DNA of 64,000 bases from Chloroflexota bacterium (GTDB lineage: Bacteria; Chloroflexota; UBA11872), in NCBI GenBank assembly GCA_022820025.1, contig JAJEGF010000015.1, positions 1-64,000 of the forward strand. The letters run 5' to 3'. Within the stretch, counting starts at the first letter, position 1. The number at the start of each line of letters is the position of its first letter. A program made the position numbers and the translations under genes. The notes under the pieces were generated by a model. It searched no databases, was not told where the DNA came from, and worked only from the letters and a program-made list of their open reading frames with translations. This document shows positions 2,525 to 62,677 of this stretch, one piece after another.

Positions 2525-2537
2525 GTTGGTGTTGACG

Positions 2538-45343: not shown

Positions 45344-46447
45344 CTAGTAACGAGCGCGTAGCGGTCGGTCGACTGCGTAGCGTGTGTCGTAACGCCCGGG
45401 GAACTCGACGGGGAGTTCGCCCGAACCGATTGCCTGGATGAGCGGAGATCCCATTGTGCGCAGCGGCAATCGCACGAGGGTGTGGGTGCGGGCGGATTCG
45501 TACATGGCCATCATGACTACCTGGTTCCTGATGGCCAGATGCGCGTCGTTGCGGTTGTCGTTCGCGTCGCCGCGCGCCCAGCGGGCCAGGCCGTCCAATT
45601 CGCGCAGGAACACGTTGTCCAGGGTCTGCGTTGGCGCCGGCGTCTGCGTCACCCCGTGGCCCCGGCGCACGAGGCGAACGGCGAAGTCCGGCGCCAGAAA
45701 CGCGCCGGGCCACATAAGCACGCCGTCGGTTCCGGTCACCGTCTGGTACTGCCAGTCGTAGGCCGGATTGGGCGGAATGTCGCCTTCGAACGAGACGCGA
45801 ATGTCGCCGGCGAAGGAGATCAGGCCACCGGACAACTCTTCGGAAGGCCAGCCGCGTTCGTAGCGGTCGCTGCGGCGCTGGACGTTGGCAATGACCCACT
45901 CGGGCTCGGGATCACCCAGCACGTATTGCATGTAGCTGAGGACGTGGGTGCCGTTGTTCATCAGGCCGCCCTCTTCGAGGCAGACGGTGGCGGTGAGCGG
46001 CGTGCCGATGGCGCCCTCGGCCACGAGCGCCCGGGCCTGCTCATGCACGGTGTACCAGCGCATCATGTGGCCGATGGCGAGCTTGACGCCGTTCCGCTCG
46101 CAGGCCGCCAGCATGGCCCGGGCCTCGCCCAGGCTGCCGGCCATGGGTTTCTCGCAGAGGATGGCGCGCGGCGGATAGCGGGTGGCGGCCAGAATCGTCT
46201 GCGGGGCATGCCAGCGGGCCGGCGTGGCGATGCTGAGGAGGTCGGGGCGCTGCTCGTCCAGCATTCGCTCGAGGTCGCGGTAGCGGCGCAGGGTCGGAAA
46301 CTGGCGGCTGGCGCGGTCAAGCGGGACCGGGTCGAGGTCGCAGACGGCGGTTAGCTCGACGCCCGGGACCTGAAGGTAGGTGCTGGCGTGCTGGCGGCCG
46401 GCCCAGTTGAGGCCGACGACGGCAGCGCGCAGGGGTTCGACCGACAT
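45344..46447 (-). CDS. Gfo/Idh/MocA-family NAD(P)-dependent sugar dehydrogenase
   Basis: A 367-residue oxidoreductase. The N-terminal Rossmann fold has AAVVGLNWAGRQHAS and ELTAVCDLD; the catalytic EKP motif is ILCEKPMAGS; the C-terminal alpha/beta domain includes LMNNGTHVLSYMQYVLG, with the His expected in catalysis. It probably oxidises a sugar, inositol or related polyol. ATG 46447 is preferred to TTG 46453. A degraded fragment of this gene's middle part recurs on the same strand at 52115-52275, upstream of hydrolase 4, showing that this gene's 5' region was duplicated with the hydrolase array. Confidence 0.88.
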   Translation of the reverse strand: MSVEPLRAAVVGLNWAGRQHASTYLQVPGVELTAVCDLDPVPLDRASRQFPTLRRYRDLERMLDEQRPDLLSIATPARWHAPQTILAATRYPPRAILCEKPMAGSLGEARAMLAACERNGVKLAIGHMMRWYTVHEQARALVAEGAIGTPLTATVCLEEGGLMNNGTHVLSYMQYVLGDPEPEWVIANVQRRSDRYERGWPSEELSGGLISFAGDIRVSFEGDIPPNPAYDWQYQTVTGTDGVLMWPGAFLAPDFAVRLVRRGHGVTQTPAPTQTLDNVFLRELDGLARWARGDANDNRNDAHLAIRNQVVMMAMYESARTHTLVRLPLRTMGSPLIQAIGSGELPVEFPGRYDTRYAVDRPLRARY

Positions 46448-46714
46448 CAGCAACTCTCCGAACGCGCTACACCAGACATGGTGCTTACCATGACCATGCG
46501 GACACTATGGCGCGTTGGCCCGAACCTTTCCAGGCCCGAGAGCGACGCGTGGGCGTTGGTGGCGACCCACGGCACTTCGGCAGGGACACATGGCAGGCGT
46601 GACTGGAGCGTGCAAGCGGAGGATTCGTCTGACGAAATGGGTTGCGGTCCTGGCCAGCGACGACCGTATTGATATCGACCAATTGTGTCGGACCTGGGCG
46701 CGAAGTCTCAGCGG

Positions 46715-48310
46715 ATGAGGCGTCGCCTGCCCTGGCCGCGGGGCCTAATCCGACGTCGTGTGCTGGCCACGCTGGCCGGTCTCGCAAGTCTGGCGGCAAT
46801 TGCAGTAATTGTCGTGGCGGCCACCAGACCCGGTCCGGAACTCCCAGCCTGCGAAACCGCCACATTCACGCCGCCGGACTTTCAATCGCCGCCGTTCGCG
46901 TTCGATCCAGAGGCACGGGCTTCGGCGTTAGGCCAAGCCATGGTGAACAGGGATTACCACCGCGCCTACGGAATGATGGCGCTGGAGGCACTACCTCTCG
47001 ACTCATTCTGCGATTTCACGCTGAAATACCGCTGGTTTCCGACCAGTGACGACAGCCGAACGTTCGACGAAATAGACCACGTTCGGATCCTGGGTTTCGA
47101 TCCTTACTCGGATTCGCTAGACGTCCAACTGCGCCTGGTTGAGCGCACCCAGACAGACGAAGGGACGCCGGCCGCTGCCGGATACGTCACCGTGAGGCTC
47201 CTGCGCGACGGGCGCTTCACGTTTCTCGACGTCGACGAGGCCATGACCGACGAGGGTCCGGTAACGGATTTTCCGCCGCCGCCGTACGCGAACTTGTCGG
47301 CCTTTGAGGAAACCGAAGTCGTGGTGGGACGGGCGCCCTGGGAACTGGACGGCACACTCACGGTGCCTCGAGGGCCAGGGCCCTTCCCCGCCGTGGTGCT
47401 GGTGCATGGGAGCCGCTATTCCGATCGCGACGGTACTGCGGACGCGACCAAGGCGTTTCGGGACCTGGCGTGGGGTCTGTCCAGCCAGGGTGTGGCCGTG
47501 CTTCGCTACGACAAGCGCACGCTGACGCACGCGCTGGCATTTGCGCGCCAGTCGGACTTCACCCTGGACGACGAACTGGTGAACGACGCGCTGGCGGCGC
47601 TGGCGCTGCTGCGTGAGACGCCACGAATCGATCCGGCGCGAATATTTGTACTGGGTGCAAGTCTGGGAGGATTCGCCGCACCGCGCATCGCTCAACGCGA
47701 TCCCGGGCTTGCTGGCCTGATCATGGTCTCTGCGCCGAGTGGAACGCGGCTGGAGGCGCTCATCCGAAATGCTGAACGGAGGTCCGAACCTGACGCACAC
47801 CTTGACGAAGCATTCTTGCGCCGCTTCCAAACGAGGCTGAGGGCCCGCGCCATGGCACGGGCGGCGCTGGCCGCCGGCGTGGCGCCGTCCCTCGACCTGC
47901 GCGCGCGCGCCGCCTACCACCTGGATATTGCCGATTACCGGCCGGAGTTGGTGGCTCGCGACCTCCCCGTGCCCTTACTAATCCTGCACGGTGGGCTCGA
48001 TGGGCAGCTGGATACCGAAGAAGCCATGGGCTGGATTCGCAGTCTCCGTGGCCGGGACGACGTTACGTTTCGTATGTACCCCTATCACGGCCACATTCTG
48101 TACGACTCGATCGAGGAGGCGGCATGGCAGGAGCTGTACGGACCGGACCCGCGGCCCCGCGTCCACGTGAGCCCGGCGGCTGTCGGAGATATTGCGGGGT
48201 GGATTCAAGGCAAGCGGGTACGACTGGCCTGCGTGGACTGGCGAGCGTGGTTTGCAACCTGTCACGGCGGTCCGACCGCCTGGTTTCGAGGGACAGCCTT
48301 TAACCCGTGA
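46715..48310 (+). CDS. Membrane-anchored alpha/beta hydrolase with DUF3887-like domain, paralogue 1 of 6
   Basis: A 531-residue protein: signal anchor (VLATLAGLASLAAIAVIVVA), a conserved PACE...PPFAFDPEARA stretch, a DUF3887-like domain with a further Cys (DSFCDF), then WELDGTLTVPRGPGPFPAVV and an alpha/beta-hydrolase fold. Catalytic triad by position: Ser316 (LGASLGGF), Asp in HGGLDGQL, His in YHGHILYD. The C-terminus carries C-x5-W-x3-C (CVDWRAWFATC). Four conserved cysteines suggest disulfides outside the membrane. ATG 46715 is chosen by analogy with paralogues that begin MRxR; GTG 46685 is possible. It lies upstream of paralogue 2 and is divergent from the Gfo/Idh gene. Likely an esterase or thioesterase; substrate unknown. 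Confidence 0.8.
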   Translation: MRRRLPWPRGLIRRRVLATLAGLASLAAIAVIVVAATRPGPELPACETATFTPPDFQSPPFAFDPEARASALGQAMVNRDYHRAYGMMALEALPLDSFCDFTLKYRWFPTSDDSRTFDEIDHVRILGFDPYSDSLDVQLRLVERTQTDEGTPAAAGYVTVRLLRDGRFTFLDVDEAMTDEGPVTDFPPPPYANLSAFEETEVVVGRAPWELDGTLTVPRGPGPFPAVVLVHGSRYSDRDGTADATKAFRDLAWGLSSQGVAVLRYDKRTLTHALAFARQSDFTLDDELVNDALAALALLRETPRIDPARIFVLGASLGGFAAPRIAQRDPGLAGLIMVSAPSGTRLEALIRNAERRSEPDAHLDEAFLRRFQTRLRARAMARAALAAGVAPSLDLRARAAYHLDIADYRPELVARDLPVPLLILHGGLDGQLDTEEAMGWIRSLRGRDDVTFRMYPYHGHILYDSIEEAAWQELYGPDPRPRVHVSPAAVGDIAGWIQGKRVRLACVDWRAWFATCHGGPTAWFRGTAFNP

Positions 48311-48464
48311 GGCTCAAGCCGGTGGGACGCGCATGGACGGCGCCGGGTTGGTCACGTTTGACGGCTGCGGCGGCGGCGTACGCTACAAAGGGCGGTAAGG
48401 CGCGACGGAGCTTAGATGAGGGGCTGGAGCCATCCGGCTGCCACCGGGTGCTTCCAGACTCCGA

Positions 48465-50051
48465 GTGACCTGGCGGACGCCTGCCGGCCTTGCCCTGGCC
48501 GCTGGGTTGTTCGGCAGTGGGTTGGCTGCGCTGGTGGTTGTGGCATTCGTCATCATCAGCAGGTCGGGCCCTGCCTGTGAGGCAGCGACACCGGCGCCGC
48601 CGGACTTTGCGGCGGCGCCGTTCGCCTACGACCCGGAAGCGCGCGCCCTGGCCTTTGGACAGGCGCTCGTCGACCAGGACTACCAGCGCGCGTACGCGAT
48701 GCTGTCCCCGGAGCAGTTTCCCGTCGGCTCGATCTGCGAGCTCGACCTGGAGAGCTTTCGGTCGCTGACCGGCGATGGGGCGAGCGTTTCCCTGGTGACT
48801 CCGCAAGGGATTCCATTGGATGAGGCACCCGGCGGGCGCAATGACTCGCCGCCAACCTCGGCCATGGGTTTCGTGGCTGCCTACGACAGCATCGAGGTGT
48901 TCATCCGGCTGTCACCGCGCCAGCCGTCGGCGACGACGGTGACCTACCTCCGGCTCACGCTGCTGCGAGACGGTCGTGTAGCTCAGGGCACACCCCTCGA
49001 GCCGCTGATCAAGCTGCGTCCGGTTAGGGAGTTTCCGTCCCCGCCGTACGCAGACCTGGAGGCATTCGAAGAGATCGATGTCGTGGTGGGGCAGGCGCCC
49101 TGGGCCCTTGGCGGCACCCTGACGATGCCACGCGGGCCCGGGCCCTTTCCCGCTGTTGTGCTCGTGCCGGGGAGCGGGTATCCCGATCTCGACAGCACGG
49201 GCGGCGCAGTCAAGCCGAGCCGCGATCTTGCCTGGGGACTGGCAAGTCAAGGCATAGCCGTGCTGCGCTACGACAAGCGCACGCTGACGCACGCGCTGGC
49301 TTTGGCGCGCCAGCCCGACTTCACGCTTGACGATGAGCTGGTGGACGACGCCCTGGCCGCCGTGGCTTTGCTTCGCCAGACGGCGCGACTCGATCCCGCG
49401 CGCATTTTTGTGCTCGGGAGCAGTTTGGGCGGCTTCGCCGCTCCGCGAATCGCGCAGCGCGATCCTTCGCTTGCCGGCCTCATCATCGAGTCCGCGCCGA
49501 GCGGGCGCTTATGGGGTGGATATGTGGGACACGCGCTACGGATCGCCCAAGCAGACGGAAGTATTTCGGAGATGGAGCAGCGTCGGATCGACAGAGTCAG
49601 GGCGCGTGTGGGAACGATCGAGGCGCTGATTGACGATGGAGCCACGCTCCCCAACATGACCGTGCGCTCGGCCTACTTCCGGGATCTTGCCGGATACCGG
49701 CCGGAAACCGTGGCGCGCGACGTGATAGTTCCGATGCTGGTGTTGCACGGCAACCTTGACGGGGTCCTGAGCCAGGCCGATCTCGCAGGCTGGACTCAGA
49801 GCCTCCGTGGGCGCCGGGATGTTGTATTCCACCTCTATCTCGAGCATATGCACGGCCTCTTCGATCGGCGCACGGTGAGCGGACCCGACATTCGTCCCGC
49901 CGGTCACGTCAGCGAGGAGGTCGTGGACGACATAGCCCGCTGGATTGCCGGCGAGCGGCCGGAACACCAATGCGTGGACATTCAGGCTTGGAATGTCGGC
50001 TGCCGTGGTGGACCTGCGGCATCGTTCGATGGGGTGGCTCGCGCCTCGTGA
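48465..50051 (+). CDS. Membrane-anchored alpha/beta hydrolase, paralogue 2 of 6
   Basis: A 528-residue paralogue with a signal anchor (LALAAGLFGSGLAALVVVAF), PACEAATPAPPDF, a DUF3887-like region (Cys in VGSICELD) and the hydrolase domain. Triad: Ser320 (LGSSLGGF), Asp in HGNLDGVLS, His in LEHMHGLFD. C-terminal motif CVDIQAWNVGCRGG. The strongest blocks shared with paralogues 1 and 3 are VLRYDKRTLTHALA and DPARIFVLG. Only a GTG at 48465 fits as start, giving a shorter cytoplasmic N-terminus than in paralogues 3-5. It is 154 bp after paralogue 1, so each copy may have its own promoter. Confidence 0.8.
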   Translation: MTWRTPAGLALAAGLFGSGLAALVVVAFVIISRSGPACEAATPAPPDFAAAPFAYDPEARALAFGQALVDQDYQRAYAMLSPEQFPVGSICELDLESFRSLTGDGASVSLVTPQGIPLDEAPGGRNDSPPTSAMGFVAAYDSIEVFIRLSPRQPSATTVTYLRLTLLRDGRVAQGTPLEPLIKLRPVREFPSPPYADLEAFEEIDVVVGQAPWALGGTLTMPRGPGPFPAVVLVPGSGYPDLDSTGGAVKPSRDLAWGLASQGIAVLRYDKRTLTHALALARQPDFTLDDELVDDALAAVALLRQTARLDPARIFVLGSSLGGFAAPRIAQRDPSLAGLIIESAPSGRLWGGYVGHALRIAQADGSISEMEQRRIDRVRARVGTIEALIDDGATLPNMTVRSAYFRDLAGYRPETVARDVIVPMLVLHGNLDGVLSQADLAGWTQSLRGRRDVVFHLYLEHMHGLFDRRTVSGPDIRPAGHVSEEVVDDIARWIAGERPEHQCVDIQAWNVGCRGGPAASFDGVARAS

Positions 50052-50362
50052 GACTCATGCCGGCCGTGGGGATACGGGTGACGCCGCAACTGCGTTACAG
50101 ATACGGAATGTGCCTGAGATGGGCACGTGCCCACTCCGAGCGCTTGATACCGTGGCCAGTTTGTGTGCAATAAGGGCCAAGGCCGCTGTGGAATTCGCAA
50201 CGACCCGCGCGAATGACCAGTCGTTCGCCCGCGTCTCTGAGGCTCCCATGTGAAGGCGGAGAACGCACCGTTGCTGCGGACGACTCGGGTGCTGCAAGGC
50301 ACGTGGCGGCGTAGGCTGCCAATCGACGAAAGGCGCGACGGGGCACAACGGGAGACCGGGAC
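50052..50362. other. 311-bp spacer between hydrolase paralogues 2 and 3
   Basis: No gene supported. The last ~50 bp (GGCGGCGTAGGCTG ... AAGGCGCGACGGGGC) resemble the region before paralogue 2 (GGCGGCGTACGCTA ... AAGGCGCGACGGAGC), consistent with a duplicated promoter/leader. GGGAG lies 8 nt before the ATG of paralogue 3. Confidence 0.45.
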
Positions 50363-51982
50363 ATGCGGCTGCGACTGGGAAACCGGCGTCTGCGGGTGTC
50401 CTGGTGGCCACACGTCAGTGTGGCGCTGGCGTTCGGGCTGTTGAGCAGCGGATTGGCCGCGCTTGTTTCGCTAACGCTCTTGGTTGACCGCGACACGGTC
50501 CCGGCGTGCGAGGCGGTGACGCCGACGGAGCCGGACTTTGAGGTGGCGCCGTTTGCCTATGACCCGGAGGCGCGCGCCCTGAGCTTTGCGCAGGCTCTCT
50601 TGGATGAGGATTACCGCAGCGCGTACGCGATGTTGGCGGTCGAGCTGCAGCCCGCGGCATGGCTCTGCACGTACCCGCTTGAGGATCACCTGGGGTCGAT
50701 GGCCGAGGACTTTGGGAGCGTGGCGCTGGACGCGACCGTCGGAGGGCGGGCTCACGCCGCTGGCACCGTGAGTGGCAACGACGAGCACAGGGCGGCGTAT
50801 GGTTTTCTTCCGTTTTCGGATGAGTTGGAGGTCTGGCTCAAGTTCACGCGTCGTCAGCCCACGACCCTGCCGCCGGTGATCGCGAAAGTGGTGCTCGTGC
50901 GCGATGGGCGGGTGTCCAGATTCTGGTTTCATCAGGTCCTGAGCACAGTCGGCCAACTGCCGGACTTCCAGGCACCGCCGTACGCCGACCGAACTACTTT
51001 CAATGAGATCCCGGTAGTGATTGGCCACGCGCCGTGGGAACTTGGCGGAACACTGACTCTGCCGGACGGGCCCGGTCCTTTTCCAGCTGTGGTCCTTGTA
51101 CCAGGCGGCGGGTATGCGGATCGCGATTCCACCGGGCTAGCCGCCAAAGCCTTCCGCGACCTTGCGTGGGGACTGGCGAGCCAGGGCGTGGCAGTCCTGC
51201 GCTATGACAAGCGCACGCTGACGCACGCGTTGGCCTTTGCGCGCCAGCCCGAATTCACCCTTGACGACGAGCTCGTGGACGACGCGCTGGCGGCGGTGGC
51301 GCTGCTCCGTCAAGAGCCGCGAATCGATCCAGCGCGCGTTTTCGTTCTGGGAAGCAGTCAGGGCGGCTTCGTGGCGCCGCGCATCGCGCAGCGCGACACG
51401 GCCATTGCCGGCCTCATTCTCTATTCGGCACCGGCGGAGTCCAGACGCGAGCAGCAACTGCGTGACCTTCAGCAACGCATACGCGACGTCAGCCGCGTCG
51501 CCGCCTCATCCGTGGAAGGACGATGGCTTGACCTCAGGCGGGACTACGCCGCAGCGGTGGCTGGGAGTGAAGGAGCGCCACCGCACATCAAGGTGCGTCC
51601 CGGCTACCCGTTTGAACGGGATGGGTATCGGCCGGACCTAGCCGCCCAGGATGTGCGCAGGCCGTTCCTGATCCTGCACGGAGCCCTGGATCCAGTGGTG
51701 ACACGCGAGACCATGATCGGATGGGCCCAAAGTCTGCGCGGACGTGACGACGTTGTGTTTCGCCTGTACGCCAATCATGACCACGGCCTGTTCGACTGGC
51801 GCGATCTGCGCGGTCCCGGTACTCGTCCGACCGGTCACGTCAGCGAGGAGGTCGTGGACGACATTGCGCGTTGGATTGCGGGCGAGCGGCCGGAAAATCA
51901 ATGCTTGGACATTCATGCTTGGCAGGCGGGTTGCCGCGGCGGACCCGATGCGGCGTTCCGTGGGGTTGTTCGCGACCCATGA
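50363..51982 (+). CDS. Membrane-anchored alpha/beta hydrolase, paralogue 3 of 6
   Basis: A 539-residue paralogue starting MRLRLGNRRLRVSWW, then a membrane anchor (VALAFGLLSSGLAALVSLTL), PACEAVTPTEPDF and a DUF3887-like domain (Cys in AAWLCTYP). Triad: Ser332 (LGSSQGGF), Asp in HGALDPVVT, His in ANHDHGLFD. C-terminal motif CLDIHAWQAGCRGG. ATG 50363 has GGGAG 8 nt upstream and is a reliable start that helps fix the starts of the others. It is very close to paralogue 2 in the last 60 residues (VSEEVVDDIARWIAGERPE identical in both), pointing to recent duplication or gene conversion. Confidence 0.82.
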   Translation: MRLRLGNRRLRVSWWPHVSVALAFGLLSSGLAALVSLTLLVDRDTVPACEAVTPTEPDFEVAPFAYDPEARALSFAQALLDEDYRSAYAMLAVELQPAAWLCTYPLEDHLGSMAEDFGSVALDATVGGRAHAAGTVSGNDEHRAAYGFLPFSDELEVWLKFTRRQPTTLPPVIAKVVLVRDGRVSRFWFHQVLSTVGQLPDFQAPPYADRTTFNEIPVVIGHAPWELGGTLTLPDGPGPFPAVVLVPGGGYADRDSTGLAAKAFRDLAWGLASQGVAVLRYDKRTLTHALAFARQPEFTLDDELVDDALAAVALLRQEPRIDPARVFVLGSSQGGFVAPRIAQRDTAIAGLILYSAPAESRREQQLRDLQQRIRDVSRVAASSVEGRWLDLRRDYAAAVAGSEGAPPHIKVRPGYPFERDGYRPDLAAQDVRRPFLILHGALDPVVTRETMIGWAQSLRGRDDVVFRLYANHDHGLFDWRDLRGPGTRPTGHVSEEVVDDIARWIAGERPENQCLDIHAWQAGCRGGPDAAFRGVVRDP

Positions 51983-52114
51983 GACACGACCCGTTGGAAC
52001 TGACGTGCGCCGCATCCCAATTGCCGTCACGCCGTGGATTGTCACTGAGGTTGGCGAAGCCTGGATTGGACTGCTTCATCCAGACCTGAGGATTGAGTCA
52101 GAGGACGAGTCCGC

Positions 52115-52275
52115 GTGGGCGTCGACCGGGCGGCTGAGCGCGGGCGGGCTGCCTTTCATGGGTTTTCTCGCAGAGGACGGCGGCCTTCGAGCTACGGCCA
52201 AGATGCTCCGCGGGGCGTGCCAGCGCTGTGTCGTGGAAGTGCTCTGGTGCGCGCCGGATATTCGCAAGCAAGGTC
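52115..52275 (-). pseudogene. Decayed fragment of the Gfo/Idh/MocA dehydrogenase gene
   Basis: Read on the minus strand, one frame gives QRWHAPRSILAVARRPP and another gives AVLCEKTHERQPA. These match WHAPQTILAATRYPP and ILCEKPMAGS of the intact gene at 45344-46447, but with a frame shift between them. The DNA block CATGGGTTTTCTCGCAGAGG (52158 region) corresponds to 46142-46160. It lies upstream of and opposite to paralogue 4, the same arrangement as the intact gene before paralogue 1. Confidence 0.7.
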
Positions 52276-52366
52276 AGAGGCCGCAGCAATGCGCTTGATA
52301 CCGCCTTGCACATGAACTCACTATGGAGGCCTGAGCCAGGGGCACTCGGCCAGGAGTGGGCGCGGC

Positions 52367-53908
52367 ATGCGGATTCGGCCAGGGACGTGGCGGTTACGCG
52401 CGGCCTGGTTTACACACGCCGGCCTGGCTGCCGTGGTTGGACTGGCTGGCAGCGGCCTGGTCGTGCTCGTCGGTCTGACGCTCCTGGTCGACAGACTTGC
52501 GGTCCCGGCTTGTGAGGCCGCTTCGCCGACGCCGCCGAATCAAGAGGCGGCACCCTTTGCGTTCGATCCGGAGGCGCGCGCGCAGGCGTTTGTGCAGGCA
52601 ATGGCCAGCAACGACTTTCAGACCGCGTACGGGATGGTGGCTCTTGAAGAGTTTGGCAGCGCCTCGCTCTGCGAGCTGAACCTCGAGCACTTCTGGCGAG
52701 CGGTCGCCAACGGCCACACGACCTTGCTGTCGGTGGAACGATTCTCTCCACTGGTCTACGCGGCCGTGTACGACTACCTGTCAATCCGGCTGCGCCTCAC
52801 GTTTGGCGCGGACGGGGAGCCAGAGCAGCCGGCGCGCGAAGCCTATATCGAGGTGTTGCTTACCCCGGATGGCCGGACTGCCTCTTACGGCTACTTCTCC
52901 GTTCTGACCCAACTTGGGCCTCCACCGGAATCACCGCCTCCGCCGTATGCGGCTGCAGATTCCTTCGCGGAGAGCCAGGTCACCGTGGGCACGGCGCCAT
53001 GGGAGCTTGGCGGCACGCTGGCGATGCCGCGAGGCGCCGGGCCGTTTCCCGCCATCGTCATCCTGGGCACCGGCGGTGGACGTGACGGAGTGGAAGGCGC
53101 GAACAAGCGGGATCGTGATTTCGCCCAAGGGTTGGCGGCGCATGGCGTGGCGGCGCTGCGTTACGACAGCCGTCCGTGGGCCTACGGATTGGAAGCTGCA
53201 CGGCAGCCGGAGTTCACGATGGCCGACGAAACCGTCGACGATGCCCTGGCAGCCGTAGCTTTGTTGCGGCAGATGCCGCGAATCGATCCGGAGAGGATCT
53301 ACGTGCTCGGCATCGGTTTCGCCAGCTTTGCGTCTGTGCGCGTCGCACATCTTGACTCTGAACTTGCCGGATTGATCCTGATCTCACCGTCAGCCGGTCT
53401 GATCTGGGATTGGGCCTGGCGGGCACACCAGGAGCGCGCCGATGTTGACGAATTCGTGACGGAGCAGGAGGCACGCGACGTCAAGATGCTCAAGGCGCGG
53501 GCGGCAACGATTGCGGCCGTTGCCGCCGGAACGGCGCCACCGCCCGACCTTGGCGTTCGCATCGACTATCACCTCAACCTGGTTACGTACCGACCTGAGC
53601 GAGCCTCACGCACCTTGAAAACCCCCATTCTGGCTCTGTTTGGCGACCGCGACGGCGTTGTACCGATCGAGGACCCCGAAGCTTGGATCTCCAACCTCCT
53701 GGGGCGTGCGGATGCCGCAATTCGCGTATATGAGGGGCACAGTCACGGCATGTTCGATGTTCTGAAGATGAGCGGGCCTGAAACTCGCGGGCAAGGCCAC
53801 GTGGACGAGGAAGTGATCGTTGACATCGTCGCCTGGATCAAAGGCGACTGGCCCAGGCAGACCTGCCAGGGCCTTGAAGCCTGGTATGCCGGCTGCCGCA
53901 CTGGCTGA
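52367..53908 (+). CDS. Alpha/beta hydrolase paralogue 4 of 6, nucleophile lost (likely non-catalytic)
   Basis: A 513-residue paralogue beginning MRIRPGTWRLRAAWF, with anchor, PACEAASPTPPNQ, DUF3887-like domain (Cys in SASLCELN) and hydrolase fold. The nucleophile elbow reads VLGIGFASF: aligned with LGSSLGGF, the Ser is Gly317 and both following glycines are changed. The acid (FGDRDGVVP) and histidine (EGHSHGMFD) are kept, and the C-terminal CQGLEAWYAGC motif is intact. The block that reads YDKRTLTHA in others is YDSRPWAYG. The reading frame is undamaged, so it is probably a maintained pseudo-enzyme with a binding role rather than a dead gene. The decayed Gfo/Idh fragment lies upstream. Confidence 0.78.
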   Translation: MRIRPGTWRLRAAWFTHAGLAAVVGLAGSGLVVLVGLTLLVDRLAVPACEAASPTPPNQEAAPFAFDPEARAQAFVQAMASNDFQTAYGMVALEEFGSASLCELNLEHFWRAVANGHTTLLSVERFSPLVYAAVYDYLSIRLRLTFGADGEPEQPAREAYIEVLLTPDGRTASYGYFSVLTQLGPPPESPPPPYAAADSFAESQVTVGTAPWELGGTLAMPRGAGPFPAIVILGTGGGRDGVEGANKRDRDFAQGLAAHGVAALRYDSRPWAYGLEAARQPEFTMADETVDDALAAVALLRQMPRIDPERIYVLGIGFASFASVRVAHLDSELAGLILISPSAGLIWDWAWRAHQERADVDEFVTEQEARDVKMLKARAATIAAVAAGTAPPPDLGVRIDYHLNLVTYRPERASRTLKTPILALFGDRDGVVPIEDPEAWISNLLGRADAAIRVYEGHSHGMFDVLKMSGPETRGQGHVDEEVIVDIVAWIKGDWPRQTCQGLEAWYAGCRTG

Positions 53909-54051
53909 TTCGCACTCGCCAACCCGAATAACACGCCAGTCGTTGCTCCGAGCATCACAGCCCGCTGTTGAGGTATTCGACCATTGCTTGACGACGCGAG
54001 CGCTACAGTGGGTCGCCATCGTTTGCCGCCTGACTACGACGACTCAGGGGA

Positions 54052-55263
54052 GTGGCACCAATCCGAATAACCAATATCCGCTTGACGGAACTGCACGGCC
54101 TCTTTGAGTCGGACGGTGAGTTCTGGGAAGAGCGGCTGGTGCGGCCGCTGGATGTGTATCCGGAACACAAACGGGATCCGGACCAGCACATTCCCAAAGC
54201 GCGAGAGGTCGACGGCGCCCACGATCTTTCGTGGGTCTTCGTGACGATCGAGACCGATCAGGGCGTGAGCGGGATGGCCGGGCCGATCGACGTGCCTGAT
54301 GCCTATGTCATCGACACGCAGATCACGCCGTTCATCCTGGGCGCGGATCCGCTGGCCAGCGAGCGAATCTGGGATCAGTTGTACCGGCTGATGATTCACG
54401 GCCGCAAGGGATCGCCGATGTTTGCGTTGAGCGCCATCGACACGGCGCTGTGGGACCTGAAAGGCAAGTGGCTGGGGCAGCCGCTGTACCGGCTGCTGGG
54501 CGGGCCGGTGCGGACGTCGATTCCGGCCTACGCCAGTGCGCTGGGTTTCTCCATCGAGCCCGAGCGGGCAGCGGAACGCGCGCGGCAGTTCGTGGCCGAG
54601 GGATACACGGCGACCAAGTGGTTCGTGCGCTACGCCCCTGACGACGGCGAGGCGGGCGCCCGGCGCAATGTTGAATTGATGTGCGTGCTGCGCGAGGCCG
54701 TGGGCGACGACGTGGACGTGATGATCGACGCCTGGAGCAGCTGGAACGTGCGCTACACGCTGGACATGGCGCGGCGGATGGCCGAGTACCGACCGTATTG
54801 GATCGAGGAGCCGGTCAAGTCCGACGACATCGCCAACTATGCGCGGATTCGGGCGGCGTCACCGGTCCCCATTTCCGGCGGCGAGCACGAGTACACGCGC
54901 TGGGGCACGCGCGATTACATGAAGGCCGGCGCGGTGGACATCTACCAGGCCGACACCATGTGGGCGGGCGGCGTGAGCGAAATGCTGAAGATCGCGACGA
55001 TCTGCTCGGTCTACGACGTGCCGCTGATTCCGCACGGGGCGTCGGTTCCGGTCAACGCGCATCTCAGCGCGGCCTGGCCGCCGCCGCTCTGTCCCTACGT
55101 GGAGTACCTGGTGAAGTGGAACGAGCTGCGGCAGTTCTTCTTCAAGAATCCCGTCGTGCCGGCCAACGGCATGATCAGCCCGCCGGATGGGCCCGGCGTC
55201 GGCGTGGAGATCGACGAGTCCAAGGTGACCGCCGAGCGTGAACTGAACTGGCGAGAGGCCTGA
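54052..55263 (+). CDS. Mandelate racemase/enolase-superfamily sugar-acid dehydratase (L-rhamnonate dehydratase-like)
   Basis: A 403-residue enolase-superfamily enzyme. Mg2+ ligands are expected at Asp of VMIDAWSSW, Glu of WIEEPVKSDD and Glu of ISGGEHEYT; the general-base His lies in IPHGASVPVNAH. The C-terminus (PANGMISPPDGPGVGVEID) resembles rhamnonate dehydratases. It would dehydrate an acid sugar to a 2-keto-3-deoxy acid. The annotated GTG at 54052 directly abuts an AGGGGA, which is too close to act as ribosome-binding site; a start slightly downstream is possible. It interrupts the hydrolase array between paralogues 4 and 5 and is convergent with an aldo/keto reductase, suggesting a sugar-acid route (inference). 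Confidence 0.85.
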   Translation: MAPIRITNIRLTELHGLFESDGEFWEERLVRPLDVYPEHKRDPDQHIPKAREVDGAHDLSWVFVTIETDQGVSGMAGPIDVPDAYVIDTQITPFILGADPLASERIWDQLYRLMIHGRKGSPMFALSAIDTALWDLKGKWLGQPLYRLLGGPVRTSIPAYASALGFSIEPERAAERARQFVAEGYTATKWFVRYAPDDGEAGARRNVELMCVLREAVGDDVDVMIDAWSSWNVRYTLDMARRMAEYRPYWIEEPVKSDDIANYARIRAASPVPISGGEHEYTRWGTRDYMKAGAVDIYQADTMWAGGVSEMLKIATICSVYDVPLIPHGASVPVNAHLSAAWPPPLCPYVEYLVKWNELRQFFFKNPVVPANGMISPPDGPGVGVEIDESKVTAERELNWREA

Positions 55264-55292
55264 CGGTTCGACGGACCGGCTGAGGCGCGGAG

Positions 55293-56252
55293 CTACCCGG
55301 ACGTCTGCCCGCGGATGACGGCAATTTCCTCGGCGCTCAGGTACGGCGGATCGCCGACGGGGGTGTTGGCCGCGATGTCGTCGGCGTTGGAGAGTCCGAC
55401 GATGCATGTCGACGCGGCTTCATGGCCCAGGACGAATCGCATCGCCGTCTCATACGGCAATTCGTCGCGCAGGTCGGCGATGTCCTGGATGCGTTCGCGC
55501 GGACCGGCGGCGTCGGCCAGGCGCTCGCGGAACATCTCGGACTGACGCCAGTCGCTGGCCGGCAGCGCGGCTAGCTCCGCCTCACTCAGGAGGATCAGGC
55601 CGTTGGCGAACGGCGAGCGCGCGAAGACGCCGGTTCCGTGCTCGGCTGCCAGCGGCAGCAACTCGTCGCCGGCCCCATCATCGACGGCGTTGTAGGGAGT
55701 CTCGACCACCGGCGCGCCCCAGCGTCGGATGGCTTCGACGGCGGTCTCTGGCTCACCGGTCCTGGCGGAGATGCCCCACCAGCGGATCTTGCCGGCGGCC
55801 TGAAGCTCCTGCAGCACAGCGAAGGGCTCTTCGTGCTTGACGATGTGCAGCGGCGGGTCGTGCAGGAGATAAGCGTCGATGTATTCGGTGCGAAGGCGGC
55901 GCAGGGCCAGATCGCAGGCGTCGCGAATGCGCTTGGGCGAGTAGTCGCGCGGCTGCTTGGCGCCCTGAATGGACTGCGCGCCGTCGGTGCCGGGCAGGTA
56001 GCCGACCTTGCTGATGATGAAGGCGTCGTCGCGACGGCCGTAGAGCGCCTCGCCCAGCAGGACTTCGCTGCGGCCGTTGCCGTAGACCTCGGCGGTGTCA
56101 AAGGTGGTGATGCCGGCGTCGAAGGCCTGCTGCACCAGGCGAACGCCGTCCCAGGCCGGGAAGTCGCCCCAGGCCTGGCCGCCGATTTCCCAACAGCCCA
56201 TGCAGAGGGCACTGACGCGCTCGCCGGTGGCCCCAAGACTCCGCATTTCCAT
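55293..56252 (-). CDS. Aldo/keto reductase (second)
   Basis: A 319-residue (beta/alpha)8 oxidoreductase with a complete tetrad: Asp52 and Tyr57 (TFDTAEVYGNG), Lys82 (IISKVG), His131 (YLLHDPPLH). It resembles the L-galactose/D-arabinose dehydrogenase-like branch. ATG 56252 has GGGAGA 8 nt upstream on the minus strand; the longer frame to 56444 runs into the intergenic region. Neighbouring the sugar-acid dehydratase, it may oxidise or reduce the same sugar. A decayed copy of its first part lies at 58200-58400, upstream of paralogue 6, evidence of block duplication. Confidence 0.88.
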   Translation of the reverse strand: MEMRSLGATGERVSALCMGCWEIGGQAWGDFPAWDGVRLVQQAFDAGITTFDTAEVYGNGRSEVLLGEALYGRRDDAFIISKVGYLPGTDGAQSIQGAKQPRDYSPKRIRDACDLALRRLRTEYIDAYLLHDPPLHIVKHEEPFAVLQELQAAGKIRWWGISARTGEPETAVEAIRRWGAPVVETPYNAVDDGAGDELLPLAAEHGTGVFARSPFANGLILLSEAELAALPASDWRQSEMFRERLADAAGPRERIQDIADLRDELPYETAMRFVLGHEAASTCIVGLSNADDIAANTPVGDPPYLSAEEIAVIRGQTSG

Positions 56253-56565
56253 GGCTGATCTCCCGAGTGTTCCGCCAGTGCCCGCCGTGGCGGGGTTTTG
56301 GCACGTGGCATGCCTGGACGCGAGTCCGCGACGCATCGCACGCCCGCGGCGCTGGTCTGCGAGCATAGACAATTGGCAGAGTTGAGGGCGCACGAACGAC
56401 GACAATCCCGCATGGCCATTTCCGCTCGCCGTGTGCACGGCCAACCGGCAGCGCTTCCAGCTTGATGCTTGTGTGCGTGCCGGCAGTGGCGCGACGTGAC
56501 GTGAGACGTCGCATCGTCCGAGCGCCAGTTTGGGAGCCGTGGCGGCTCGGGGAACCGGAGAGCTT
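56253..56565. other. 313-bp divergent promoter region between aldo/keto reductase 2 and hydrolase paralogue 5
   Basis: No gene supported. It must hold promoters for both strands. GGAG at 56557-56560 is the probable ribosome-binding site for the GTG at 56566. No operator-like palindrome stands out. Confidence 0.4.
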
Positions 56566-58248
56566 GTGAAGTTTCGGTGGACGGCGCGGCAATTGAACGC
56601 GGCGTTGGGTATCGCCGGAGTGGTCGGGGCTGTGGTGTTGGCCGCTAGCTTTACGCTGTTTGTGAGGCACGACGCCCAAGAAAAGGCCGTGATCCGCGAG
56701 GATCCTTACTGCTGGTCGGCGCAGCCAGCCGCGCCGGACTTCGAGGCCGCGCCATTTGACTTCGACCCAGGCGCGCGGGCGCAGGCCTTCGCAACGGTGC
56801 TCATGGAGAATGACTCACGAGCCGGCTACAGCATGCTGGCGCCCGAGTTTCTTCCGTCCGACACGCTCTGCGAGTACCCCCTGGAGGCGCTCTGGCGCCA
56901 GCAGGTGTACGGGCTGGACCCCAGCGACTATCTCTTCGATGCAAGCGTGCAGATCGATAGCAGCGCGTCGATCGTATTCTCACCGCTCAACGACGAACTG
57001 AGCCATTGGTTGCGCGTGATTCCCTCACCCTGGGATGACCGCCCCTGGGAAGCCGCCCCGGTGCGCGTCTCGCTATTGCGTGACGGACGGGTCGTTCGAT
57101 TCGAACCGGACCACGCAGAACGAGAACTTGGACCGTTGCCGAGGCTTCTGCCTCCACCGTACGCGGATCTCACCGCATTCGAGGAGATTGAGGTCACGCT
57201 GGGAGAGGCTCCGTGGCAGGTGGGCGGCACGTTGACTGTGTCGAAAGGTCCGGGGCCGTATCCGGCCGTAGTTCTCGTCCAGGGACAAAGTCTGCGTCCT
57301 GACCGTGACGGGACATTCGCCGCCACCAAGAAGAACCGCGACCTGGCCTGGGGGCTGGCGAGCCGGGGGATTGCCACGTTGCGGTACGACCAACGCACGT
57401 GGACACACGCGCTGGCCTTTGCGCGGCAAGACGAGTTCACCATCGACGACGAGTACGTGCTGGACGCGCTGGCCGCAATCGAAGCCTTGCGCCAGACGTC
57501 GCGAATCGACCCGGCCCGAATTTATGTCCTCGGCCTGAGCCTTGGAGGCTTCGTGGCGCCGCGAATCGCCCGGCAGGCACCTGACCTGGCTGGTGTCATT
57601 GTCGCCTCAGCGCCCAGTGGCGGGTTTCGGCAGAGCAGGGTTCGAGCCCTTGAGCGGGAGCTAAGCACCATCAGGACCAAGGATTCGGAAGATCCATCGG
57701 CAGCCTTCCTGCAACGCATCATCGACCGGACCCGGGCGCAGGTTGCGGACGTTGAGGCCCTGGCGGCCGGCGAAGCCATGATGCCGGACATATCCGTGCG
57801 ACCGTCGTACCACCTTGACCTGGCGGCGTACCGTCCCGAGGAGACCGCGCGCGATCTGACAGTGCCGCTGCTGATCCTTCACAGCAACGCCGACACGCGC
57901 CTGACGCAAGTCGATGCGATGGGCTGGATCCGCGGGCTACAGGGACACGAGGACGTGGTCTTTCGTCTCTACGCCGACCTCAGTCACGGGTTGGTGGACT
58001 TCACGGCGGGGACCGGGCCGGACTTGCGGCCGCATGGCTATGTTGGCGCTGAGGTGATCGGGGACATCGCGGCCTGGATCGGCGGTGCGCGGCCTGAGCT
58101 GCCGTGTATCGGCACGCCAGGCTGGCGGGCCGGGTGCCGCGGAGGCATGGCCCCCAGTGGCGCCTTTGGCCGTGACGTGATGCAACCAAGACGAGCCAGG
58201 CCGAAAGTGCTGTCCTCCAGGCAGCCGCGCCGCCTCCCGTTGCGGTAG
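56566..58248 (+). CDS. Membrane-anchored alpha/beta hydrolase, paralogue 5 of 6
   Basis: A 560-residue paralogue. GTG 56566 (GGAG 5 nt upstream) starts MKFRWTARQ, matching the MRxR starts of its relatives; TTG 56530 would add 12 residues. Anchor ALGIAGVVGAVVLAASFTLF, then a diverged cysteine segment (YCWSAQPAAPDF), a DUF3887-like region (SDTLCEYP) and the hydrolase domain. Triad: Ser325 (LGLSLGGF), Asp in HSNADTRLT, His in ADLSHGLVD. C-terminal motif CIGTPGWRAGCRGG. Unlike the others it continues ~30 residues past this motif into a basic tail (QPRRARPKVLSSRQPRRLPL), part of which is antisense to the decayed aldo/keto reductase copy. Confidence 0.8.
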   Translation: MKFRWTARQLNAALGIAGVVGAVVLAASFTLFVRHDAQEKAVIREDPYCWSAQPAAPDFEAAPFDFDPGARAQAFATVLMENDSRAGYSMLAPEFLPSDTLCEYPLEALWRQQVYGLDPSDYLFDASVQIDSSASIVFSPLNDELSHWLRVIPSPWDDRPWEAAPVRVSLLRDGRVVRFEPDHAERELGPLPRLLPPPYADLTAFEEIEVTLGEAPWQVGGTLTVSKGPGPYPAVVLVQGQSLRPDRDGTFAATKKNRDLAWGLASRGIATLRYDQRTWTHALAFARQDEFTIDDEYVLDALAAIEALRQTSRIDPARIYVLGLSLGGFVAPRIARQAPDLAGVIVASAPSGGFRQSRVRALERELSTIRTKDSEDPSAAFLQRIIDRTRAQVADVEALAAGEAMMPDISVRPSYHLDLAAYRPEETARDLTVPLLILHSNADTRLTQVDAMGWIRGLQGHEDVVFRLYADLSHGLVDFTAGTGPDLRPHGYVGAEVIGDIAAWIGGARPELPCIGTPGWRAGCRGGMAPSGAFGRDVMQPRRARPKVLSSRQPRRLPLR

Positions 58249-58400
58249 ACCTCGACCGTTTGGATCGTGGTGATGCCGCCATCGAGAGCCTGCCGGACCG
58301 GTCGAATGCCGCCGATTTCCTAACAGCCCACGCACAGGGCGCTGACGCGCTCGCCCATTGCCCGCGGACGCCGCATTTTCATGGCCGATCACTCGAGGCC
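58200..58400 (-). pseudogene. Decayed 5' fragment of aldo/keto reductase 2
   Basis: On the minus strand this matches the beginning of the gene at 55293-56252. Shared DNA blocks include GTAGACCTCG followed by GGTGGTGATGCCG, CCGATTTCC(T/C)AACAGCCCA, and GCGCTGACGCGCTCGCC(G/C). An internal deletion and frame breaks have destroyed the coding sequence. It occupies the same position relative to paralogue 6 as the intact gene does to paralogue 5, marking a tandem block duplication. Confidence 0.75.
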
Positions 58401-58476
58401 AGACGTCGAGCCGCTCGCAGGTTGCGCTGACCTTGGGCCAGAATCCGGCGCCGTCGGACAGGACACCAGGTTGACA

Positions 58477-60006
58477 GTGCGGCTGAGGCCCACGAATTGG
58501 CTGCATCTTGCCGCGTGGTGGACGCACGTTGTGGTGGCGGTGGGATTAGGGCTATTCGGCGTCGCGATCACCGTGTTGGTGAGCATCGTCCTGATCTTCG
58601 ATGCCGTCACCACGACGGCTTGCGAGGCGGCGACGCCCGCGCCACCCAACTTCACGGTGGATCCGTTTGCGTTTGACCCGGAGGCACGCGCGCGGAAGTT
58701 CGTGGAGTCAATGGCGAATGATGAGTTCCAGACCGCATACGAGATGCTGGCGCAGGAGGCGTGGGGCACGGAGTCCTATTGCGCGGTCAGCCTCGAGAGG
58801 TTTTGGAACCAGGCTGCTGAGTTAGATGGCGCCAAACTTGTGGCTGTGAATCAACCTGACTCGGGCTCTTTTGCCCCAGTCTTCAATCGCCTGGAAATCC
58901 CTCTGCGGTTGACCGTTGAGTCGGGCGGGGACCTGCGGGACGTGTATCTAGATGTGTCGTTTCTCGCAGACGGTCGAATTGCCGGCGTCGAGTTCGACTC
59001 GCTGATGACTGACGTGGGAAGGGACCAGTTCTTCCCTCCGCCGCCTTACGCAGACCCGGATCGTCTTCAGGAAACTGACGTCACACTCGGCGAGGCACCG
59101 TGGGACTTGACGGGAACCCTCACCCTCCCCACAGGCTCCGGACCGTTTCCTGCGGTCGTACTCGTCGGTGGCAGAGACCGCGATGGCACTGGGCCCACAA
59201 CTAAGCTGACCCGGGATCGGGCCTGGGGTTTGGCGGCTCACGGAGTTGCCAGTTTGCGCGTCGATCGGCGGACGCATGCACACGCATTGGCGACCGCGCG
59301 TCTCAAGGAGTTCACGATTGACGACGAGCTGGTCGATGACATGCTCGCAGCCGTTGAATTGCTGCGGCGGACGCCTCGGATTGATCCTGGTCGAATCTAC
59401 GTGATGGGCGGGAGTCTTGCTGGCTTCGCGACGCCAATGGTCGGTCTGCGCGACCCGACAATAGCCGGAGTGATTATCGCGGTGGCGCCAAGCGGATTAC
59501 TTCACGACGTGGCGTGGCGCCAAAGGCAGCTTCGAACGGGACTGGACGGAGAGGTGACGTCGCTGGAGCAACGCTTAGTTCAGTCCGCCAAGGCCCGCTC
59601 GGAAGCGGTCAGCGCGTGGCTGCGGGGGCAGGGCGAGCCTCGCGACATGGCTGTCCATCGAAGCTACTACGAACACCTGGGCACGTACCGGCCTGAAGAT
59701 GCCGCCTACCGCCTGCTCATGCCGATCTTCGTCATATCCGTTGACCGGGATCGAATCGTGCCTCCGGAGGACGCGGAAACGTGGATACGGACGCTGGGCC
59801 TTCGGCGCAATGTCGCGTTTCGCCTTTACCGCGGCCACAACCACTCGCTGATAGATGAGCGCGGATTCACCGAGTCGACCGCGGCCGAGGGGAAGTACGC
59901 GAGTTGGCAAGTCATATCCGATATCGCGACGTGGATTGACGGAGGGTGGACGGATCGCTGGTGCACGAATCAGCAAAACTGGTTCGCCGGGTGTCGGGGT
60001 GGGTAG
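58477..60006 (+). CDS. Membrane-anchored alpha/beta hydrolase, paralogue 6 of 6
   Basis: A 509-residue paralogue. The GTG at 58477 (start MRLRPTNWLH) is chosen because paralogues 3-5 begin the same way; the frame opens at 58381, inside the decayed reductase fragment. Anchor HVVVAVGLGLFGVAITVLVS, TACEAATPAPPNF, DUF3887-like domain (TESYCAVS), hydrolase domain with Ser313 (MGGSLAGF, the second glycine of the elbow changed to Ala), Asp in SVDRDRIVP and His in RGHNHSLID. C-terminal motif CTNQQNWFAGCRGG ends the protein. The YDKRT block is VDRRTHAHA. It is the most diverged catalytically plausible copy and closes the array. Confidence 0.78.
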   Translation: MRLRPTNWLHLAAWWTHVVVAVGLGLFGVAITVLVSIVLIFDAVTTTACEAATPAPPNFTVDPFAFDPEARARKFVESMANDEFQTAYEMLAQEAWGTESYCAVSLERFWNQAAELDGAKLVAVNQPDSGSFAPVFNRLEIPLRLTVESGGDLRDVYLDVSFLADGRIAGVEFDSLMTDVGRDQFFPPPPYADPDRLQETDVTLGEAPWDLTGTLTLPTGSGPFPAVVLVGGRDRDGTGPTTKLTRDRAWGLAAHGVASLRVDRRTHAHALATARLKEFTIDDELVDDMLAAVELLRRTPRIDPGRIYVMGGSLAGFATPMVGLRDPTIAGVIIAVAPSGLLHDVAWRQRQLRTGLDGEVTSLEQRLVQSAKARSEAVSAWLRGQGEPRDMAVHRSYYEHLGTYRPEDAAYRLLMPIFVISVDRDRIVPPEDAETWIRTLGLRRNVAFRLYRGHNHSLIDERGFTESTAAEGKYASWQVISDIATWIDGGWTDRWCTNQQNWFAGCRGG

Positions 60007-60814: not shown

Positions 60815-61630
60815 CTAGGCCGTAGCGGGGGTTGCTCCGATCGGCAGGGTTACCTTGTCGGCGCCTGCTCCGGCGCCTCGATAATGGCGACCGTGCCCGC
60901 GACCGCAGTCGCGGAAGCCGGACTTACCGCGACCCTTCATGTGGGCGCCGCCCTCGGCCTCCAGGGCCGATTCGATGCGCTCGCGCATTGACTGGCGGAG
61001 TTCGTCGGCCTTGTCGGCGTCGACGCGGCCGTTCTCGATCGCTGCGGTCAGCCGCGTTTCGAAGGCCTCCATGGCAGCGTCCGTGACGGCGCTCACGTCG
61101 CCGTCGGCTTGCACGATGATGTCGGACAGGCTGTCGCCGTCGGAGAGGTTGGTTCGGATGTCCTCGACGGACACACCCGTCTCTTCCGAGACGATGCCGA
61201 CCAGCCCGACGCCCTTGCCGCCGACGCGGCCGCGGCTCTTGCCGCGCTTGCCTTCGTACGTACCGGCCAGCCAGTCGCGGACTCGCTGCTCGACGGCGGC
61301 CTTGTAGTCGTCCACCTGGTCGGACTCAAGCCGGCCGGCTTCCACCAGTGCGTCGACCTTGTCATCAAGTCCTGTCAGCGCGGCCGTGACCACGGCCTCC
61401 AGGTCGCCGCCCTCGGCTTCGATGATGTCGGCCAGCGACTCACCGCCCTGCAATCGAGTTCGTATTTCTTCCGTGCTGAGACCAGTCTGTTCCTCAATCG
61501 CCGTCGCGGCGTCGGACTTTCCGCCGCCGCGACCAAAGCCGCCATGCGCGAGTACCGCGCTGACCGTGACGGCGGTCAACAGAACGACAGCTGCCACCGC
61601 CGCAACGAGGGTTCGAATACGGAGTCTCAC
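60815..61630 (-). CDS. Secreted two-repeat helical protein with Gly/His-rich ends
   Basis: A 271-residue protein I cannot name. GTG 61630 has a strong AAAGGAGG and starts a signal peptide (RTLVAAVAAVVLLTAVTVSA) cleaved before HGGFGRGGGK. Two related ~85-residue units follow: unit 1 TGLSTEEIRTRLQGGESLAD with LDDKVDALVEAGRLESDQVD, unit 2 TGVSVEDIRTNLSDGDSLSD with ETRLTAAIENGRVDADKADE. A basic Gly/His tail (FRDCGRGHGRHYRGAG) could bind metal. The repeats resemble the short helical pairs of DUF2680/YckD-like secreted proteins. It lies beside a response regulator on the same strand and ends in a strong terminator. Possibly a periplasmic or extracellular stress or metal-binding protein. Confidence 0.6.
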   Translation of the reverse strand: MRLRIRTLVAAVAAVVLLTAVTVSAVLAHGGFGRGGGKSDAATAIEEQTGLSTEEIRTRLQGGESLADIIEAEGGDLEAVVTAALTGLDDKVDALVEAGRLESDQVDDYKAAVEQRVRDWLAGTYEGKRGKSRGRVGGKGVGLVGIVSEETGVSVEDIRTNLSDGDSLSDIIVQADGDVSAVTDAAMEAFETRLTAAIENGRVDADKADELRQSMRERIESALEAEGGAHMKGRGKSGFRDCGRGHGRHYRGAGAGADKVTLPIGATPATA

Positions 61631-61769
61631 GACGCCTCCTTTCGCAAGCGCTGGGCCAATGCGAGGCCAGCACAACGTTTACGAAAAGCAGTGTTGGGGC
61701 GGCTGATGGACGCGCGATGCACGGCCCATGCGAGTTCCGTGCATTTTTTCCGCGGGGCGCTGTGGGGCG

Positions 61770-62468: not shown

Positions 62469-62677
62469 GCCGGGTTCTGCCGACCTTTCGGCATTAGATT
62501 CGATACCTTCGATTCTTACACGAGATCTTGGCGATGCCCGTCGACCGCAGCAGGCGCCCTGCTCCACGGTGCGTCTGCGATGGACAGCGTGCATAGCGCT
62601 TGCACACGGCATGCACGCGCGGTCGATACGCTCACGATTGGATGGAATCCGATACCGAGCCGGAGGTCGGCCGAGCG

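Follow-up and report, generated by a model that had tools for sequence, protein, structure and literature searches.

Six similar genes on one strand of a Chloroflexota genome raise the question of where such a family came from and whether all of its members can still be enzymes. Within the window, the stretch of 64,000 nucleotides of contig JAJEGF010000015.1 that was analysed, they are situated on the + strand and are designated W1 (46685..48310), W2 (48465..50051), W3 (50363..51982), W4 (52367..53908), W5 (56530..58248) and W6 (58381..60006). Their open reading frames (ORFs) code for 513-572 amino acids and have uncertain start codons. In accordance with the initial annotation, all six share one layout, in which a hydrophobic anchor at the N-terminus is followed by a putative DUF3887/NTF2-like region and an α/β hydrolase. 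Four cysteines are conserved, and FDPEARA-like, GTLT/GTLA and DPARIFVLG-like blocks are found in their alignment. Identities to W1 are 53, 48, 40, 46, and 40% for W2 to W6, respectively, and W1 as a query recovers all five others with E ≤ 7.3e-104, so that the likeness is not due to chance and the genes are true paralogues. No further family genes were found in the same genome.

The term "array" applies with one restriction, as the row is broken between W4 and W5 by two unrelated genes. One (54052..55263, + strand) encodes a sugar-acid dehydratase-like member of the enolase superfamily (MR_MLE) and is a conserved flank of the array; the other (55293..56444, - strand), divergent from W5, encodes an aldo/keto reductase whose true start is probably internal to the ORF. 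On the left, a gene for a Gfo/Idh/MocA-type dehydrogenase (45344..46453, - strand) flanks the array, and such a gene beside a family copy is conserved in 10 genomes. An 88-bp scrap at 58310..58397 is 83% identical to positions 56180-56267 in the reductase gene and is a probable duplication scar; pieces similar to it occur in loci L010 and L022 as well. The W6 ORF, the start of which is uncertain, overlaps this scrap with its first 17 bp. A scan for sigma-70-like promoters (0 sites versus a shuffle mean of 1.7) and terminator-like sites (3 versus 8.5) gave counts no higher than in shuffled sequences and is therefore uninformative on operon structure.

Regarding the origin of the family, 40 copies are distributed over 11 of 13 genomes of the genus, with 1-6 copies per genome and none in the other two. 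The family was not found in 6 genomes of the sister genus, and a search at the EstD threshold gave no match in 28 genomes of the class outside the genus. In a sample of 301 genomes of the phylum, 16 genomes elsewhere in the phylum possess one locus each, and equal multi-copy numbers were not seen. Phylogenetic analysis with 13 outside homologues places all 40 genus copies in one clade with 100/100 support, which is recovered in 100% of 200 bootstrap trees, and none groups separately with distant taxa. The expansion in this lineage, as proposed initially, is thus supported and is specific for the genus within the genomes searched. Absence of the family, at the EstD threshold, from the 28 other class genomes requires either a founding transfer or losses elsewhere and might be taken to favor six independent arrivals by horizontal transfer; this explanation is rejected by the single clade, is at odds with the location of many copies in one neighborhood, and is extremely improbable. 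That neighborhood has the Gfo/Idh/MocA dehydrogenase gene on one side and the enolase-superfamily gene on the other, with exceptions in genomes G004, G005, G008, and G009, where copies are on other contigs or far away.

About 12 orthologous groups can be distinguished across 11 related genomes, and they would have arisen by duplication and loss, much of it within the neighborhood just described. Orthologues of W1, W2, and W4 are present in three other genomes each, those of W5 in five and those of W6 in four, and W3, which forms a long branch, has none among the 12 other genus genomes. Absence of the family in genome G001 could reflect loss instead of later gain. No simple empty site was found there: judged by contig coordinates, some 2.5 Mb separate the RtcB gene from the enolase-superfamily gene, and the surroundings of RtcB gave no Gfo/Idh/MocA match.

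A hydrophobic N-terminal stretch is present in all 40 genus copies and probably forms a helix that holds the proteins in the membrane with their domains outside. In lipoproteins, the cysteine of the lipobox follows directly after the hydrophobic stretch. Anchoring as a lipoprotein was considered and rejected, as C1 is situated 4-31 residues past the best hydrophobic stretch and the W5 group reads DPYC in six of six members. C1 and C2 are retained in 40/40 copies, C3 in 38/40, and C4 in 39/40, and it is probable that C1 pairs with C2 and C3 with C4 in disulfides that stabilize the N-terminal domain and the C-terminal tail. The DUF3887-like domain of the initial annotation is not matched by Pfam DUF3887 (PF13026), which gave no hit above cut-off in the own genome, among the six full proteins, or among the four N-terminal pieces tested. 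What stands are indirect signals. In an hhalign comparison the N-terminal domain aligns with DUF3887 at P 1.2e-4 over 26 columns with a probability of 55% (reversed control, P 0.41), the N-terminal pieces of W4 and W6 show weak sub-threshold matches to MecA_N, and in 12 of 40 members the EstD profile match extends into the N-terminal region. AlphaFold models of W2 and W4 display a helix-then-strand order in this domain; no NTF2 entry occurs among the listed fold matches of these models. On such indirect evidence the domain may be NTF2-like and derived from DUF3887.

Assignment of W1-W6 to the α/β hydrolase superfamily follows from scores for Pfam Hydrolase_4 (PF12146) of 31.6-52.9 bits in all six copies (cut-off 27) and from the fold predicted for W2 (pLDDT 84.3) and W4 (pLDDT 87.2), both of which match solved hydrolases in Foldseek searches. 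Structural neighbors of the two models are feruloyl/cinnamoyl esterases, PET46, and lipases, and a search of a viral fold library returned mostly generic hydrolases. Substrate hints obtained in this way from models are generic fold matches. A complete Ser-Asp/Glu-His triad is present in 26 of the 40 family members, and in the window it reads Ser-Asp-His in W1, W2, W3, W5, and W6. For these triad-complete copies the extracellular processing of esters that had been proposed is plausible, judging from their residues, and the likely substrates of Ser-Asp-His copies at the cell surface would be small acyl or aromatic esters. Identity among the six copies is 0.30 for the cap and 0.33 for the N-terminal domain compared with 0.56 for the core, which makes cap and N-terminal domain the most divergent regions, and through these fast-diverging parts the active copies may differ in specificity.

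Ester processing does not fit the 14 of 40 copies that deviate from the triad, W4 among them, and the triad is not common to all six genes as had been assumed. In W4 the nucleophile elbow reads GIGFASF in place of the GxSxxGF of the five other copies, and the nucleophile is therefore missing; glycine occupies this position in 4/4 orthologues, and the cysteines are intact across the four genomes. Serine is absent in 8/40 copies, at least three changes are required for serine alone, and triad columns reading EHD, NSR, SGQ, SSD, or GSD indicate that some members have lost two or three residues. One might argue that all copies are still enzymes, the odd members having a rearranged active site: the SVH group retains Ser and His, and an Asp located two residues ahead of its regular site might serve, and W4 has Asp, His, and a Ser three residues past the lost position while retaining the hydrolase fold in its model. 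However, the glycine shared by all W4 orthologues, the eight serine-less copies and the members short of two or three triad residues make this quite unlikely.

If catalysis has been lost, the inactive copies might be decaying duplicates heading for loss, and copy numbers from 0 to 6 across species, a short family-like fragment (L014:482-697) and the looser constraint on the group V pair, in which triad residues are missing in both members (ω 0.26-0.50 by region), would agree with this. Yet the frames of inactive copies are open, and dN/dS is 0.19-0.34 for the Ser-less W4 group (six pairs), 0.20 for the X pair, in which all three triad residues are lost, and 0.22-0.29 for the SVH group, compared with 0.19-0.43 for the W1, W2, W5, and W6 groups. 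Three inactive groups are thus under constraint like the active groups, and the W4 type has been retained in four genomes. Decay is therefore disfavored for these three groups and, as a general explanation, is very unlikely. The W4 group combines loss of a catalytic residue with continued constraint and classifies as a pseudoenzyme, with its inactivity predicted from the sequence.

In the W4 group the cap is the least variable region, whereas the reverse applies in 4/6 active groups. The respective test (p = 0.0005) was one of 11 uncorrected tests and survives correction for 11. Instead of a new function, this conservation might reflect gene conversion in this region or a locally reduced mutation rate, as dS in the W4 cap is about half that in the core (0.32 versus 0.61); even so, the cap has the lower ω (0.09 versus 0.15), and we consider such a local effect possible but rather improbable. 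Cap conservation does not hold as a hallmark of inactive copies in general, since it is clear in W4 only and other inactive groups lack it.

Triad loss combined with preservation by selection suggests a second, non-enzymatic job. The explanation that we favor, with some but not strong confidence, is that surface esterases have diversified by duplication and that some have turned into retained non-catalytic proteins. The genus-specific, EstD-related hydrolases would be anchored in the membrane with their domains outside, the NTF2-like domain preceding a capped hydrolase and two disulfides serving as braces. Some groups, including that of W4, would have lost catalysis and been kept as non-catalytic surface proteins that most likely bind a ligand or partner. 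More tentative, and in our opinion doubtful, is a surface esterase/pseudoesterase system in which active copies process esters, and paralogues devoid of catalysis would serve as receptors, adaptors, or regulators, either for the same ligands or for molecules on the surface of a host sponge; the W4 group, whose cap is nearly invariant, would be the foremost candidate for such a role. The source bacterium is probably sponge-associated, and if this holds, the array is also an indication of surface chemistry specific to the genus; the esterase/pseudoesterase system, if true, would mean that enzymes have turned into binding proteins repeatedly within a single genus of symbionts. A young, genus-restricted family with triad losses in several lineages, purifying selection on the tested copies, and active and inactive copies side by side in the array offers a natural experiment on such a transition.

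Among known enzymes, EstD of Thermotoga maritima is described as the type of bacterial lipolytic family X, with the nucleophile motif GHSLG and PMSF-sensitive esterase activity on C5-C8 esters (PMC6622161). The NCBIfam profile EstD (NF041096) matches across the hydrolase in 40/40 genus members (best E 2.9e-62), with a best score of 211.4 bits that lies far below the curated cut-off of 600 for an EstD equivalog. Judged by these matches and by the same domain order, the six copies are distant relatives of EstD. Unlike EstD, the genus family is multi-copy, has four added cysteines, includes 14 members with an incomplete triad, and shows GHSLG in none of 40 rows, with GSSLG, GASLG, and GLSLG among the forms in active groups. 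Its nearest outside relatives in the tree are, along with actinobacterial homologues, the single-copy proteins L065-L067, L069, and L026 from other Chloroflexota and one Armatimonadetes bin, which likewise consist of an N-terminal domain and an EstD-type hydrolase. In contrast to the genus family, these proteins match PF13026 above cut-off, L065 and L066 have a lipobox-like cysteine, and C2, C3, and C4 are absent from the rows checked. Feruloyl/cinnamoyl esterases, PET46, and other capped hydrolases (PDB 8b4u, 7z2v, 7wwh, and 3pf8), the top Foldseek matches, have the same fold with an inserted cap, at 13-21% identity in the top matches, and differ from the genus family in that the entries, as listed, comprise neither an NTF2-like domain nor a membrane anchor. 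Among the matches listed from open-licence PMC articles (titles and abstract starts), none dealt with an expansion of EstD or DUF3887 proteins in Chloroflexota. For SAR202 Chloroflexota, paralogue expansions of catabolic enzymes have been reported, in which the excerpted text shows no tie to EstD-type esterases or inactive copies (PMC10444878). Those expansions, proposed to widen the substrate range, resemble the present case in being paralogue expansions within the same phylum (PMC10444878).

The six plus-strand open reading frames W1 to W6 (46685-48310, 48465-50051, 50363-51982, 52367-53908, 56530-58248, and 58381-60006) encode members of one protein family, W2 to W6 being 53, 48, 40, 46, and 40% identical to W1. 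The initial annotation of an array of six paralogs on one strand is borne out, but it needs correction in that the row is broken between W4 and W5 by an enolase-superfamily gene (54052-55263, plus strand) and an aldo/keto reductase gene on the opposite strand (55293-56444). Intergenic gaps in the array, the reductase interval excepted, are 132-384 bp. Within its own genome (3.63 Mb, 92 contigs), W1 as query retrieves W1 to W6 and two weak partial matches, and the family profile retrieves the identical six. A duplicated scrap of 88 bp at the start of W6 (58310-58397) is 83% identical to DNA within the reductase gene and is probably a duplication scar; because of its position, the start codon of W6 is doubtful. 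Similar pieces are also present in the loci L010 and L022.

The postulated expansion in this lineage is supported by the distribution of the family, as 40 copies are spread over 11 of the 13 genomes of the genus (six each in G000 and G004, five in G003 and G006, four in G008 and G009, three in G007 and G010, two in G005, and one each in G011 and G012) and none of 28 other genomes of the class has a match at the EstD threshold. The family profile finds one partial match in one of these same 28 (G040). No copy is present in G001 (a single contig, completeness 94%) or G002 (completeness 76%). In two neighbor genes these genomes have diverged further than any other of the genus: RtcB shows 79% identity in G001 and no match in G002, and the enolase-superfamily gene shows 78% in G001, 57% in G002, and 67% in the sister genus. 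As the G002 value falls below that of the sister genus, this match may be a paralog. In a sample of 301 genomes of the phylum, with at most five candidates scored per genome, 26 genomes match, ten belonging to the genus and 16 outside it; among the outside genomes, 15 have one match each and G294 has two adjacent fragments, several of these 16 matches being weak and partial. Scanned with a peptide pattern, the species-genome collection yields 26 loci, 17 from Chloroflexi/Chloroflexota bins with full-length members and nine more distant.

In both trees, built with 7 and 13 outside rows, the family forms one side of a 100/100 branch, and 12 groups are distinguished by eye in the family tree. Orthologs of W1, W2, and W4 occur in three other genomes each, those of W5 in five, and those of W6 in four; W3 has no ortholog in other genomes of the genus and a long branch. 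In ten genomes the first recognized gene past a Gfo/Idh/MocA dehydrogenase gene (45344-46453, minus strand, in the window) belongs to the family, at 0.2-2.3 kb, where unrecognized genes could intervene, and in eight genomes the enolase-superfamily gene has a copy upstream at no more than about 2.1 kb. Exceptions are G012, where the enolase-superfamily gene is about 20 kb away within an inverted block, and G005, where it is on a separate contig; in G011 a search at E 1e-100 does not find it. A contig end cuts the left flank in G007, whose three copies are dispersed over 31 kb, and in G004, G005, G008, and G009 some copies are on other contigs or far along. A short family-like fragment adjoining the Gfo/Idh/MocA gene in G004 (L014:482-697), 57% identical to W3 and excluded from the 40 copies, is possibly the remnant of a lost copy. 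An RtcB-family protein encoded near the array (44099-45301) is present once per genome in 12 of 13 genomes of the genus and in neither of two sister-genus genomes searched at E ≤ 1e-60. On the other side, a 286-residue reading frame adjoining the array (60815-61675, minus strand), without match in Pfam or NCBIfam, is 75-94% conserved in the loci where it is observed, and an OmpR-type response regulator (61770-62612, minus strand), also conserved downstream, is a candidate regulator.

All 40 members match the NCBIfam EstD profile (best E value 2.9e-62), at scores that do not exceed 211 bits, where the cut-off is 600, and in 12, including W4 and W6, the match extends to N-terminal positions of the profile. 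EstD, the type member of lipolytic family X, is described as carrying the motif GHSLG, being most active on C5-C8 esters, and being inhibited 96% by PMSF (PMC6622161). Since GHSLG is found in none of the 40 aligned family rows, the family is here called EstD-related rather than EstD. The N-terminal domain had been called DUF3887-like. No window protein matches PF13026 (DUF3887) in a Pfam search, but the label is probably right by descent, since the first helix aligns at the equivalent place when the N-domain profile is compared with five DUF3887 relatives (26 columns; P 1.2e-4, probability 55%; reversed control P 0.41). DUF3887 itself exceeds the Pfam cut-off in five of six outside homologs scanned, the exception being that of Saccharothrix (L028). 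The domain is described as NTF2-like, found fused to hydrolases, with small-ligand binding suggested (PMC3924330).

A hydrophobic stretch of 19 residues close to the N-terminus (mean Kyte-Doolittle 2.07-2.80) is present in all 40 members and is preceded by more basic than acidic residues in 39, both counts depending on where the rows were trimmed, close to the beginning of their match to the profile; together these features suggest that the domains lie outside the membrane. The conserved cysteines C1 to C4 are retained in 40, 40, 38, and 39 of 40 members. Among seven aligned outside rows, only L026 has a cysteine at the C1 column and none has C2, C3, or C4, so that the family has likely gained two predicted disulfides. 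AlphaFold models of W2 (pLDDT 84.3, pTM 0.85) and W4 (pLDDT 87.2, pTM 0.85) consist of an N-terminal helix-then-strand domain followed by a hydrolase whose cap is helical and, in W2, occupies about residues 345-420. Among solved structures, the models most resemble PET46, feruloyl and cinnamoyl esterases, a Thermoanaerobacter lipase, and a Chloroflexus hydrolase.

The layout claimed for all six copies stands, but an intact triad in each does not, W4 being GDH. At the nucleophile, acid, and histidine columns, of which the Asp calls are the least certain, the family comprises 25 SDH, one SEH, four GDH (W4 and its three orthologs), four SVH, two EHD, and one each of NSR, SGQ, SSD, and GSD; therefore, 26 members look competent by triad and 14 do not. 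The serine is missing in eight of 40. Parsimony on the family tree, in which the catalytic columns were retained, requires three changes for Ser and four for any triad loss. Constraint continues in the W4, X, and SVH groups, with dN/dS of 0.19-0.34 in the W4 group (six pairs), 0.20 in the X pair, which lacks all three triad residues (one pair), and 0.22-0.29 in the SVH group; the comparison groups W1, W2, W5, and W6 show 0.19-0.43. Group V, with triad residues missing in both members, is looser (0.26-0.50 by region), and for L014_G004_1104 there is no close ortholog for such a comparison. The initial reading of ester processing is plausible for the 26 competent-looking members but not for the other 14, including W4, and is incomplete as a functional reading.

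Names of bins among the genomes contain RHO and COS, which fit Rhopaloeides and Coscinoderma, sponges studied in PMC8163846, and from which we infer a sponge habitat. Three adjacent genes at 32-7792 encode a eukaryote-like surface set of fibronectin-III, LRR/PD40, and cadherin-type proteins; fibronectin-III and cadherin classes are linked to sponge-associated genomes in the same source, and their genes in the first 8 kb would fit such a habitat. Elsewhere in the window, a 963-residue reading frame (15075-17966) has no Pfam match at E ≤ 1e-8, and one of 419 residues (37905-39164, minus strand) has none in Pfam at E ≤ 1e-5 or NCBIfam at E ≤ 1e-10.

Active copies would probably be tethered esterases on the outer side of the membrane, and the likeliest role of dead copies would be to bind a ligand or partner. 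The neighbors of the array (sulfatase, Gfo/Idh/MocA, aldo/keto reductases, PhyH oxygenase, and sugar-acid dehydratase-like proteins, some NCBIfam matches being below cut-offs) would fit the breakdown of decorated sugars, a weak link because they are also kept beside the single copies of G011 and G012. The family represents a known kind of enzyme in a new form, and its retained non-catalytic members are the point to follow.
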